A stretch of DNA of 51,738 nucleotides from an uncultured Prevotellaceae bacterium (lineage in GTDB: Bacteria > Bacteroidota > Bacteroidia > Bacteroidales > Bacteroidaceae): assembly GCA_947167835.1 (NCBI GenBank), contig CAMVJO010000002.1, forward strand, positions 1 through 51,738. The letters run 5' to 3'. A program made the position numbers and the translations under genes. Under the pieces are notes generated by a model. The model made no database searches, was not told where the DNA came from, and was given only the letters and a program-made list of their open reading frames with translations. How positions within the stretch are numbered: position 1 is the first letter of the stretch; each line of letters starts with the position of its first letter. Of the stretch, positions 4,221 to 42,570 are shown in pieces.

Positions 4221-4485
4221 TTTGTGTCGCAATAATTTTTGCTAATTCCGCAGTAGCTTAGACTAACTCCGAAGAAGCTTACGCTAATTCCACGGTAGCT
4301 TATACCAGCGTCGCAATAGATTTCCTTAGCTCGGCATCGTCATGCGTGAATGTCGCACAACGCAAAAACGATGCGTCACTTGGTGAAAATAGTGTGGGAC
4401 ACCGTAAAAACAGTGTCGAAACACGTAATTTTTGCGCCGTAAAAGCGTTAAAAAGTTTTTTCACGCACAAAAGTAGTGCGAAAAT
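4221..4485. repeat. Degenerate ~21-bp tandem array upstream of porQ
   Basis: e.g. GCTAATTCCGCAGTAGCTTAGA / CTAACTCCGAAGAAGCTTAC / GCTAATTCCACGGTAGCTTATA; anchors 4227, 4247, 4268, 4289, 4311, 4331, 4353, then a second word set (AGTGTGGGACACCGTAAAAAC / AGTGTCGAAACACGTAATTTT). Confidence 0.7.
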
Positions 4486-10689: not shown

Positions 10690-11517
10690 ATGTCGTTGGC
10701 AAAATACATAGAAAAAATAGAAATTAGCAGTCTGTGGAGCGGAAAAAAGCACATTGTATGGAAGCTGCGCCCCGACGTAAATGTGCTGAGCGGCAAGAAC
10801 GGCGCGGGTAAGAGCACCATACTCAATCGTATCGTGCAGTATCTGCACAGTATTCCGGCATCGGGCGAAATCAGTAAGGACATCACGCGCCATATCATCG
10901 TGGATTTCTATCCCGAAGGCAGCACAAGTGTTCGTTACGACATCATTCGCAGTTTTGATCGCCGACTTCTTGACAACGATAGGGCACAAACCATCACGGA
11001 TCAGCACATAGAAACAGAAATGGACTGGCAACTCTACCAGTTGCAACGACGTTATCTGGATTATCAGGTGAATATCGGAAATCGCATGATAAGTTTTCTG
11101 TCGTCTTCCGACGAAAATGCTAAGGAAAAGGCACAAATGGCTGCACAGCAGAAGCATATTTTCCTGGATATGGTGGATAAACTTTTTGCCGAGACAGGAA
11201 AAACCATAGATCGCAACTGTAACGAATTGCAGTTCATACAATACGGCGAACCGCTCTCACCTTATTTCCTGTCCAGTGGAGAAAAACAGATTTTAGTCAT
11301 ACTCCTCACAGCCCTGACCGAAGATATGCAACCGTATGTCTTCTTTATGGACGAACCCGAGGCAAGTTTACATTTTGAGTGGCAGAAAGATCTCATTGAC
11401 ATGGTGCGAAAATTAAATCCCAACGCGCAAATAATCCTTACCACCCATTCGCCCGCCGTTATCATGAACGGATGGGAAGATGCCGTCACGGAAGTGGGAG
11501 ATATCACGCAGGATTGA
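10690..11517 (+). CDS. AAA/ABC-class ATPase paired with DUF4435 protein
   Basis: Walker A LSGKNGAGKST; signature LSSGEKQ; Walker B YVFFMDEPEAS; H-loop ILTTHSP. Start at MSLAKYIEKIEI. Confidence 0.88.
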   Translation: MSLAKYIEKIEISSLWSGKKHIVWKLRPDVNVLSGKNGAGKSTILNRIVQYLHSIPASGEISKDITRHIIVDFYPEGSTSVRYDIIRSFDRRLLDNDRAQTITDQHIETEMDWQLYQLQRRYLDYQVNIGNRMISFLSSSDENAKEKAQMAAQQKHIFLDMVDKLFAETGKTIDRNCNELQFIQYGEPLSPYFLSSGEKQILVILLTALTEDMQPYVFFMDEPEASLHFEWQKDLIDMVRKLNPNAQIILTTHSPAVIMNGWEDAVTEVGDITQD

Positions 11518-11527
11518 TTCCTTTGCA

Positions 11528-11676
11528 CTCCTTATATAATATATAGCAGCGGAAAATACATTTATTCCTACTCCATATATAAGATATAGTCGGGGCAAAT
11601 ACATTTTTCTCTCTCCTTATATAACATTCAGGTGGGAGTAAATGAAAATCCCTACACCATAAATAATATATACCGC
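11528..11676. repeat. 21/42-bp tandem array between the ATPase and DUF4435 genes
   Basis: CTCC/CACC anchors 11528, 11571, 11613, 11655 (43, 42, 42); alternating units CTCCTTATATAATATATAGCA / GCGGAAAATACATTTATTCCTA. Confidence 0.8.
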
Positions 11677-11694
11677 CTTCAAAAAAGTTTTCTT

Positions 11695-12810
11695 ATGAAG
11701 AAACTTTCAGATTACGCCAACTCTTCGTACATTCAAGCCTACAATAGATTGAATGGCAGGAATGTACGCAGGAAAATCGTGGTGTATGTGGAAGGTTATG
11801 ACGACATTCATTTCTGGAGTTCGGTACTGAAACCTCTTGAAACCGAGGAATACTATTTTGAAGTCATGCTACCGTCGCGTAGCAGCCTGGGACACGGAAA
11901 GCGTGTCGTACTTTCCAACCAATTAGGCCGACGTCTGGGAAATTATATGATAGCCTGTGTTGATGCAGATTACGATTATTTGCTGAATGGCAGCACAAAT
12001 ATTTCGCAGTTCGTATGTAATAATCCGTATGTCTTTCATACTTATGCGTATGCCATAGAAAACCTGCAATGCTACGCACCTTCTTTGCAAGGAGTCTGCA
12101 CTATGGCGACTTTGAACGACCATAGGATTTTCGACTTCGAGGCTTTTCTTGCAGAATACTCACGGATTATTTTTCCGCTCTTCGTTTGGAATGTTTGGGC
12201 CTATCGTTACGGAGAATATAAGGGATTTACCCTTTCAGACTTCTTCGCTGTCATTCAAATGAACGACATTAATACCTATCATCCCGAAAGAAACCTGCAA
12301 AAAGTGCAGCACTTTGTAAACGCAAAGATTGCGAAACTTCAAAAAAGATACCAACAAGCCAGAAAAACATGGAAGCCTTTGCGCGATGAGTTGCTGGAAA
12401 AAGGTGTTTTGCCCGAAGAAACCTATCTTTATATCCGAGGTCACGACCTTTTTGACGGTATTGTCGCTCCTTTGCTCTCCAAAATCTGCGAACAACTGCG
12501 GCGTGAACGCGAAAATGATATACGAAAATTAGCAAAACATGACACGCAAATGCAAAATGAACTGGCAGGATATCAACATGCTACGGCTGCTTCTGTGGAA
12601 ATGCTGAGGAAACATACGGGATATGCCGCATCGCCCCATTATAAGCACATACAAAATGATGTTCAAGCCTTCCTGCATAATATTTCCATGACGAAAACGG
12701 AAGAGAACTCCAATTTTTCAGGTGATATAGGCACCGAAAGACATAATAACTTAGGCTTTTCCGATGGTAGTGCCACAAAAAGACACAATACCTCCGGCAC
12801 TTATTTTTAG
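11695..12810 (+). CDS. DUF4435 (TOPRIM-like) domain protein
   Basis: IVVYVEGYDDIHFW (Glu motif) and MIACVDADYDYLL (DxD) resemble TOPRIM/DUF4435; directly downstream of the ATPase. Confidence 0.78.
   Translation: MKKLSDYANSSYIQAYNRLNGRNVRRKIVVYVEGYDDIHFWSSVLKPLETEEYYFEVMLPSRSSLGHGKRVVLSNQLGRRLGNYMIACVDADYDYLLNGSTNISQFVCNNPYVFHTYAYAIENLQCYAPSLQGVCTMATLNDHRIFDFEAFLAEYSRIIFPLFVWNVWAYRYGEYKGFTLSDFFAVIQMNDINTYHPERNLQKVQHFVNAKIAKLQKRYQQARKTWKPLRDELLEKGVLPEETYLYIRGHDLFDGIVAPLLSKICEQLRRERENDIRKLAKHDTQMQNELAGYQHATAASVEMLRKHTGYAASPHYKHIQNDVQAFLHNISMTKTEENSNFSGDIGTERHNNLGFSDGSATKRHNTSGTYF
12715..12800 (+). repeat. 42-bp (2x21) repeat forming the 3' end of the DUF4435 gene
   Basis: TTTTC anchors 12715/12757 and AAAGACA anchors 12737/12779, both 42 bp apart; encodes TERHNNLGFSDGSA / TKRHNTSG. 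Confidence 0.75.
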
Positions 12811-21159: not shown

Positions 21160-21318
21160 ATGGCCTTGAAATCTAAATCTATAGTCGTGCAATGCGATTA
21201 AATTTCTTTGAAATCTAATTCAATGGCCGTGCAATCCAATTAAAGAGTTGAGGTGTCCAATTAAATGTACGTGCAATCTAATTAAACAGCCGTGTTATCC
21301 TCTTTTATATTCGCAGAA
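21160..21318. repeat. Degenerate 21-bp tandem array
   Basis: Anchor T of ...AATC/GTCC... at 21172, 21193, 21214, 21235, 21256, 21277, 21298; all 21 bp apart. Confidence 0.85.
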
Positions 21319-24557: not shown

Positions 24558-24922
24558 TAAGTCCGAGCAAAATTCAAGTATCTCGGAGCAAATTCTAATT
24601 ATCTCCCAATTAGTTTGTGATACTCGAATTTTATCCATATCCGTGCACCCTTTATTATTCGATATTTTCGGGGTTTTTCGGGATAAAAAAAATTGCACAC
24701 GGAATAGGAACAAATAGCTCCGAGCATAATTTTTTTATCTCGGAGTTAATTCTTAATAGTGTCGAGCTAATTTTATTTTGCTCGGAGCTAAATTTTTGTA
24801 GTTCCGAGCCCATTAACCCCAAATTGCCCAAATTGCCCATTTTCCCCCAAGGAAAAATATTACCAGCGGCCATAGTTTTTTCTTCTCCTTCGGTATATCG
24901 TGATAACGGTATAACGGTATTA
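24558..24922 (-). repeat. Composite repeat copy D (complete)
   Basis: Slots ending 24567, 24588, ~24609, then 24724, 24745, 24766, 24787, 24808 (exact 21 bp); 9-bp module 24809-24848; 8-bp module CGGTATAT/CGTGATAA/CGGTATAA/CGGTATTA. Confidence 0.85.
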
Positions 24923-37804: not shown

Positions 37805-38284
37805 ATGGACTACGAAAATAATAATACCGATTTCAATAACCAAAGTGCCCAACAACCCAACGAGAACGGGCAGCAGAATTGGCAACAAAACCAGCAAAAC
37901 TGGCAGCAAGGGCAGCAAAATCGCGTTTGCCCGTGTCAGTATTGCAATTACTCGCAGCAGAATTGGCAAGGCCAGCAACAAAATTGGCAGGGACCGCAGC
38001 AATCTTGGCAGCAGTCCCCACAAAATCATGCAGGCTCGGAGGAAAGACCGAGTACATACATGGTTTTGGCCATTCTAAGCACGGTATGCTGCTGTATCCC
38101 CTTCGGAATCGTTTCAATCGTCTATGCAAACAAAGTAGATACGCTTTGGTATCAAGGAATGTACGAGGAAGCCAGAAAGAGTTCCCGCAGAGCGCGTAAT
38201 TGGGCTTTGGCTTCAATTCTTACAACCATAGCATTTTACTTTTTGTATATTTTCTTTGCTATTATCATAGCAGCAATGAATTGA
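37805..38284 (+). CDS. CD225/dispanin-like membrane protein with Q/N/W-rich heptad-repeat N-terminus
   Basis: TYMVLAILSTVCCCIPFGIVSIVYANKVDTLWYQGMYEEARKSSRRARNWALAS; N-terminal heptads GQQNWQQ, NQQNWQQ, SQQNWQG. Confidence 0.85.
   Translation: MDYENNNTDFNNQSAQQPNENGQQNWQQNQQNWQQGQQNRVCPCQYCNYSQQNWQGQQQNWQGPQQSWQQSPQNHAGSEERPSTYMVLAILSTVCCCIPFGIVSIVYANKVDTLWYQGMYEEARKSSRRARNWALASILTTIAFYFLYIFFAIIIAAMN
37862..38040 (+). repeat. In-frame 21-bp coding array (8 heptads) in the CD225 gene
   Basis: TGG/CGC/TGC/CAT codons at 37880, 37901, 37922, 37943, 37964, 37985, 38006, 38027; all 21 bp apart. Confidence 0.9.
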
Positions 38285-38327
38285 AACAGCGGGGAAATCA
38301 GATTTAAATTCGACTTCCTGTAGAATA

Positions 38328-38580
38328 GTTCCGAGGTGCTCCCGGAGATGTCCGACATCTTTTCAGAGAAGTCCGTTATCTTTTTAGAGAAGTCCTACAT
38401 CTTTTGGGGATAGTCCGACAACTTCTTAGAAAAGTGAGGCATTCCTCTGAATAAGTCCGAGATAATTCAAAATAAGTCCGAGATAAAATAAAATAGTTCG
38501 GAGATAAAATAAAATAGTTCTGAGGTAATTTATAATAGCCCTGAGGTACGGAAAGATATATCCGACTATTTTCACATTAC
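38328..38580. repeat. Degenerate 21-bp tandem array (about 12 units, GTCCGAGATA-like)
   Basis: GTCC-type anchors 38328, 38350, 38371, 38392, 38413, 38434, 38455, 38476, 38496, 38517, 38538; mostly exact 21-bp steps. Confidence 0.9.
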
Positions 38581-42400: not shown

Positions 42401-42482
42401 AATTTCGGAACAGCAATAAAAGGTTGATCTTGCCTTTTGTTTATTATCTGCCGGTTACAAGAATAGATTGACAAGCTAAATA

Positions 42483-42570
42483 TTTTCTCATCGCCATGAT
42501 AAAGTTTTCTCATCGCGTAGAGAAAATTTTCTCTTCGCGATGAGAATCTTTTCTCTACGCGAAGAGAATG
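42483..42570. repeat. 22-bp tandem array of palindromic units
   Basis: TTTTCTC at 42483, 42505, 42527, 42549; units such as TTTTCTCATCGCGTAGAGAAAA, TTTTCTCTTCGCGATGAGAATC. Confidence 0.85.

Follow-up and report, generated by a model that had tools for sequence, protein, structure and literature searches.

Defense systems are regarded as a fast-turning accessory pool, and the locus described here raised the question of what becomes of a defense-type gene pair that is kept as a core gene instead. The pair consists of an ATPase gene and a DUF4435/TOPRIM gene. It lies in the stretch of DNA that was analyzed as a whole, here called the window (positions 1 to 51,738 of contig CAMVJO010000002.1, assembly GCA_947167835.1; 51,738 nucleotides). 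An earlier note on this DNA had compared the pair with PARIS, in which an ATPase (AriA) is combined with a DUF4435 protein (AriB), and with OLD-type nucleases. Judged by its sequence, the pair falls under the published definition of PARIS (a cassette of AAA_21 and DUF4435 genes), as a two-gene form in which AriA is short. It is inherited vertically as a core locus in Bacteroides, Prevotella and relatives, and offers a direct test case of an abortive-infection module that was fixed for the long term and is either still immunity or has turned into a cellular regulator. By analogy with E. coli PARIS we favor the former. The pair would be an active, family-core PARIS with a short AriA that provides phage-triggered, tRNA-cutting immunity, and we give this reading a probability of roughly 0.6.

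Identity of the two proteins

The features of the pair are listed below. Conservation was scored in 61 AriA and 64 AriB homologues, and AriB residues were numbered from the ATG at 11695.

10690 to 11517, + strand: AriA-like ABC/SMC-type ATPase, putative sensor, 275 amino acids plus stop (PADLOC, profile comparison, Foldseek)
10792 to 10818, + strand: Walker A, GKNGAGKST (G35, N37, G38, G40 and K41 invariant, T43 nearly so)
11269 to 11289, + strand: ABC signature, LSSGEKQ (L194, G197, E198 and Q200 invariant)
11341 to 11361, + strand: Walker B, FFMDEPE (D221 and E222 invariant)
11446 to 11448, + strand: H-loop, His253 (invariant)
11695 to 12810, + strand: AriB-like DUF4435/TOPRIM protein, 371 amino acids from the ATG (Pfam, PADLOC, Foldseek); the open reading frame (ORF) is open from a GTG at 11632
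11782 to 11817, + strand: TOPRIM motif 1, VYVEGYDDIHFW, with the predicted catalytic E33 (E33, D37, F40 and W41 invariant)
11956 to 11976, + strand: TOPRIM DxD motif, CVDADYD (D90 and D92 invariant)

The upstream protein proved to be the ABC/SMC-type ATPase that the earlier note had recognized, with Pfam matches to AAA_21 (1.8e-21) and SMC_N (1.2e-14) and with Walker A, signature, Walker B and H-loop all in place. The PADLOC AriA model PDLC04164 was covered end to end (5.9e-56), and all 61 homologues matched PADLOC AriA as well. A profile built from the homologues matched AriA of the Protein Data Bank (PDB) at 5e-31, with the Walker A part and the signature/Walker B part colinear. The AlphaFold model had a mean predicted local distance difference test score (pLDDT) of 90.9, and its best PDB matches in Foldseek were the AriA chains of 8v45, 8v46 and 8ux9 (E 7e-13).

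The downstream protein, which had been called TOPRIM-like for VYVEGYDDIHFW and CVDADYD, matched Pfam DUF4435 (6.2e-51) and the PADLOC AriB model (1.2e-58), as did all 64 homologues in the case of the AriB model. The TOPRIM active-site set (Glu plus DxD) was present, with E33, D37, D90 and D92 invariant in the 64 sequences. Its AlphaFold model also reached a mean pLDDT of 90.9, and the best PDB match in Foldseek was chain 8ux9_A, which is AriB in the PARIS complex (prob 1.00). The TOPRIM match, whose absence would have spoken against the earlier proposal, was thereby found, and the solved AriA and AriB were the best PDB fold matches of the two models.

The detection rule for PARIS (PMC9122126) asks for an AAA_15 or AAA_21 ATPase adjoining a DUF4435 protein, with a threshold of 27 bits for AAA_21 and likewise for DUF4435. 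Here the scores were 77.9 bits for AAA_21 and 173.9 bits for DUF4435, and the genes were neighbors on one strand. The PARIS-type identity was thus borne out by PADLOC, by the Pfam architecture, by the AriA profile and by the folds. A search of NCBIfam gave no name for either protein.

The pair agrees with the two-gene AAA_21/short-AriA type of PARIS in gene order, domains, full-length PADLOC models, TOPRIM catalytic set and fold. Known PARIS systems are mobile cargo, in contrast to the vertically inherited core pair found here. OLD-family nucleases and Gabija GajA likewise couple an ABC ATPase with a TOPRIM nuclease. They act on DNA and combine both parts in one polypeptide chain, whereas the ATPase and the DUF4435 TOPRIM protein of the window are encoded by two separate ORFs. 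The profile match of AriA to OLD was also much weaker (6p74, 3e-6). The PtuA ATPases of Septu and retrons are related in their core (2.6e-22 for the PADLOC PtuA model; E about 1e-11 by fold), but their partner is the HNH nuclease PtuB instead of a DUF4435 protein, and the AriA models scored far above PtuA.

The shortness of the ATPase had been noted before. At 275 amino acids it is indeed short, and the solved E. coli AriA, with a longer region between Walker A and signature, has 464. However, the short length is typical of the clade (271-298 amino acids) and already covered by the matching PADLOC AriA model of 253 amino acids. Some lineages have an AriA of 221-237 amino acids (five sampled rows from the four genera g211, g193, g188 and g187) with intact ATPase motifs. 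Variability of AriA was highest at residues 51-70, 91-110 and 141-150. At loci L192, L193, L194, L195 and L204 the middle part of AriA was about 40-50 amino acids shorter, and the ATPase and nuclease motifs were preserved. We considered whether the ATPase had been replaced in genomes with weak AriA hits. It was mostly the same gene, adjacent and with a shortened middle part, and genus g190 was the true exception. There, a PARIS pair with a long AriA (358 amino acids; loci L197 and L198) from outside the core clade stands in place of the core pair.

A core locus and its ancestral site

The family was the GTDB family coded f1, which takes in Bacteroides, Phocaeicola, Prevotella and Alloprevotella relatives. 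It was sampled with one genome per species, many of them metagenome-assembled, and genera are referred to by codes. An AriB relative was detected in 379 of the 399 family genomes (200 of the 207 rated good) and in 55/58 genomes of the same genus. An order-wide search found AriB in 24 of 295 genomes, four of them family members, which leaves 20 of about 291 elsewhere; this search used a single query protein, which remote AriBs would escape. An AriA signal was obtained in 393/399 family genomes. Judged from the E-values, about 382 of these signals were real partners and the remainder weak matches to other ATPases. All 17 genomes that had no real AriA were among the 20 lacking AriB, so AriB never occurred alone. 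The other three AriB-less genomes had an AriA signal only, one (G566) being cut by the contig end and two giving fragment-like scores. For comparison, the type I restriction domain HsdR_N was found in 138/201 genomes; it is a loose yardstick only, since this broad model was frequently multi-copy and very divergent.

The pair was usually single copy and adjacent. The two genes had one orientation in 62 core loci; the median distance between them was 24 bp, and in four loci they overlapped. In the concatenated tree, 33 genus groups gave 32 changes, which is the minimum, and none of 200 shuffles was as low. AriA and AriB distances were correlated (r=0.74; Mantel test, 0 of 2000). Between close species, the ratio of nonsynonymous to synonymous substitutions (dN/dS, by NG86) was 0.01-0.07 for AriA and 0.05-0.19 for AriB. 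Near-universal, single-copy, vertically descended and under purifying selection, the pair is a core gene pair of the family. Such presence is unusual, because defense genes are as a rule gained and lost from strain to strain. It is not essential, since it was cleanly lost in several lineages and is absent from some complete genomes.

Copies on mobile elements were also searched for. A set of 50,697 phage records contained no match, and IMG/VR yielded just remote relatives with up to 33% identity. Two close plasmid hits turned out to be Bacteroides/Phocaeicola records. The annotated one is flanked by the chromosomal ancestral neighbors and is therefore probably a chromosomal piece.

Bacteroides shared the order DUF1573-MeaB-(EamA)-AriA-AriB with several further genera, and most of this group had MscS downstream; the annotation of Bacteroides finegoldii has the same order (AAA family ATPase, DUF4435 protein). 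Gene order thus points to MeaB-EamA-AriA-AriB-MscS as the ancestral site, whose neighbors have drifted since. In genome G350 the same block was found cleanly without the pair, with about 150 bp from EamA to MscS. In genus g2, four related species (L255-L258) also lacked the pair between EamA and MscS. The stretch contained an operon for aconitase, isocitrate dehydrogenase and citrate synthase, which was read in two of the species; the remaining two had equal spacing.

In the window the pair is flanked by tdk and an outer-membrane beta-barrel protein (OMP), just as the earlier note had placed it. The tdk-ATPase-DUF4435 order, which it had put up for a check of conservation, did not recur: tdk stood beside the pair in the window only and in none of about 75 other loci examined. 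Several congeners carry the pair beside the same OMP family. There the OMP lies upstream and divergent, so the window arrangement could have been obtained by a block inversion of the pair. Surrounding genes of the window encode LytB, RsmF, PrmA, Tdk, the OMP, a radical SAM protein, a PP-loop protein and DnaA. No other defense or mobile genes were found next to the pair in the window, and PADLOC mad2 hits on RsmF and PrmA were dismissed as cross-hits of methyltransferase domains. The housekeeping context described before was correct and proved to be the key hint, in the form of near-universal vertical conservation in the family. Of the combined finding that was to speak against a defense pair, one half, such conservation, was seen, whereas the other half, an established housekeeping role, was not: the literature searched gave no cellular role for the pair.

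Immunity or a cellular switch

The favored reading of an active PARIS takes its base from the two identities, the intact ATPase and catalytic sites, strict pairing, vertical descent, purifying selection, the ancestral site and occasional clean loss. In E. coli, the tRNase AriB uses two metals and is held by a hexamer of AriA, and the E26A variant of AriB is inactive (PMC12409363); the mechanism is also treated in PMC11455837. Oligomer, sequestration, release and tRNA cleavage are probably shared with the E. coli system. AriA would form an ATP-bound oligomer that keeps AriB inactive until the phage makes a trigger protein that binds to AriA. AriB would then be released and dimerize, and its TOPRIM site (E33, D37, D90, D92) would cleave host tRNA, by which translation would stop and the infection abort.

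Several observations weigh against this reading. The short AriA lacks about 170-190 amino acids that separate the Walker A and signature parts in E. coli AriA, and hexamer formation and trigger binding are therefore not to be assumed. The fold match of AriB to 8ux9_A had an E of 4.5e-3 and a TM of just 0.34-0.39. The profile comparison with the solved PARIS proteins, which the earlier note had suggested, succeeded for AriA, but for AriB no match to PDB AriB was found by sequence, including the homologue-built profile. The sensor AriA is more conserved than the effector AriB. Finally, defense genes are usually patchy and fast-evolving, and the pair is neither.

The last two points lend some weight to the main rival, a domesticated switch. 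A PARIS-type pair may have entered the family ancestor, been fixed between MeaB/EamA and MscS and become a switch that cuts tRNA or other RNA on an internal signal (DNA damage, stress or nucleotide state), with phage defense secondary or lost. We regard this as less likely than immunity, yet as a substantial possibility, because near-universal vertical retention and slow evolution of the sensor are atypical for immunity. Consistent with a switch are the single copy and housekeeping-like neighbors, the core-gene-like dN/dS and the absence from sequenced phages. AriA has also diverged as fast as the core genes around it; between L045 and L260, which share the site, identity was 85% for AriA, 77% for AriB, 82% for MscS, 81% for EamA and 87% for MeaB. 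A switch accords less well with the clean loss in several lineages, with the differences in AriA middle region and length among lineages and with the lack of a conserved partner gene. The long-AriA clade that g190 carries instead would also be more readily explained by a need for defense. If the pair were a switch, an anti-phage module would have turned core regulator in major gut commensals.

A selfish, toxin-antitoxin-like pair, in which loss of AriA alone would free a toxic AriB, appears improbable. AriB was indeed never found without AriA, and PARIS has been described as toxin-antitoxin-like (PMC11455837). However, either PARIS gene of E. coli can be deleted without toxicity (PMC9122126), both genes were cleanly lost together here, and addiction alone poorly explains family-wide retention across such divergence. 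Recent acquisition of an ordinary mobile PARIS at the tdk locus, to which the private tdk neighborhood and the mobility of PARIS elsewhere (PMC9122126) might point, was refuted by the counts in genus (55/58) and family (379/399) and by the genus-congruent tree, while the congeners beside the same OMP family fit local rearrangement and no mobile or defense genes adjoin the pair.

For an active PARIS in this family, published calls are of interest. For B. thetaiotaomicron jmh43, transcription of a PARIS call has been reported (PMC12135933), although it is not shown to be a locus of the window type. Rst_PARIS calls in gut Bacteroidales (PMC10924106) probably include the core pair; vertical inheritance, single-copy fixation and the ancestral site are not stated in the passages of that source consulted. 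The literature searched held no statement of the Bacteroidales pair as a vertically inherited core locus, and one may exist beyond it. PARIS prevalence in gut bacteria may largely count one vertical locus and not many acquisitions.

Tandem arrays in and around the pair

Two features of the locus are repeats.

11527 to 11669, strand not assigned: 42-43-bp tandem array in the AriA-AriB spacer, not part of the module (Tandem Repeats Finder, TRF)
12715 to 12798, + strand: two in-frame 42-bp repeats coding the C-terminal tail of AriB (units 71% identical)

The 21/42-bp spacer array to which the earlier note had drawn attention is real. TRF reported it at 11527-11624, and four units spaced 43, 42 and 42 bp reach up to 11669. 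It proved irrelevant to the pair. All 15 TRF rows of the window had periods of 21-22 or 42-44 bp with unrelated unit sequences, and arrays lay at 4242-4302, 11527-11624, 21181-21294, 24565-24809, 37871-38548 and 42479-42569. Congeners had similar arrays elsewhere in the genome, while their AriA-AriB spacers were mostly array-free. Since arrays of the same period recur across the window and at other places in congeners, the array was rejected as a component of the system. The true start of AriB is probably the ATG at 11695; the GTG at 11632 is an unlikely start because homology starts at the ATG and array DNA fills the stretch between the two codons.

The C-terminal tail is unique to the AriB of the window, homologues having mostly gaps in these columns, and its pLDDT was under 50. 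It looks like array DNA that has grown into the gene. In one congener an ORF resembling agmatine deiminase, named by eye from its sequence, lies between AriA and AriB (L224:5950-7197), and its start resembles a signal peptide. The array periods correspond to two or four turns of DNA, which suggests a habit of helically phased arrays in the genome of the window.
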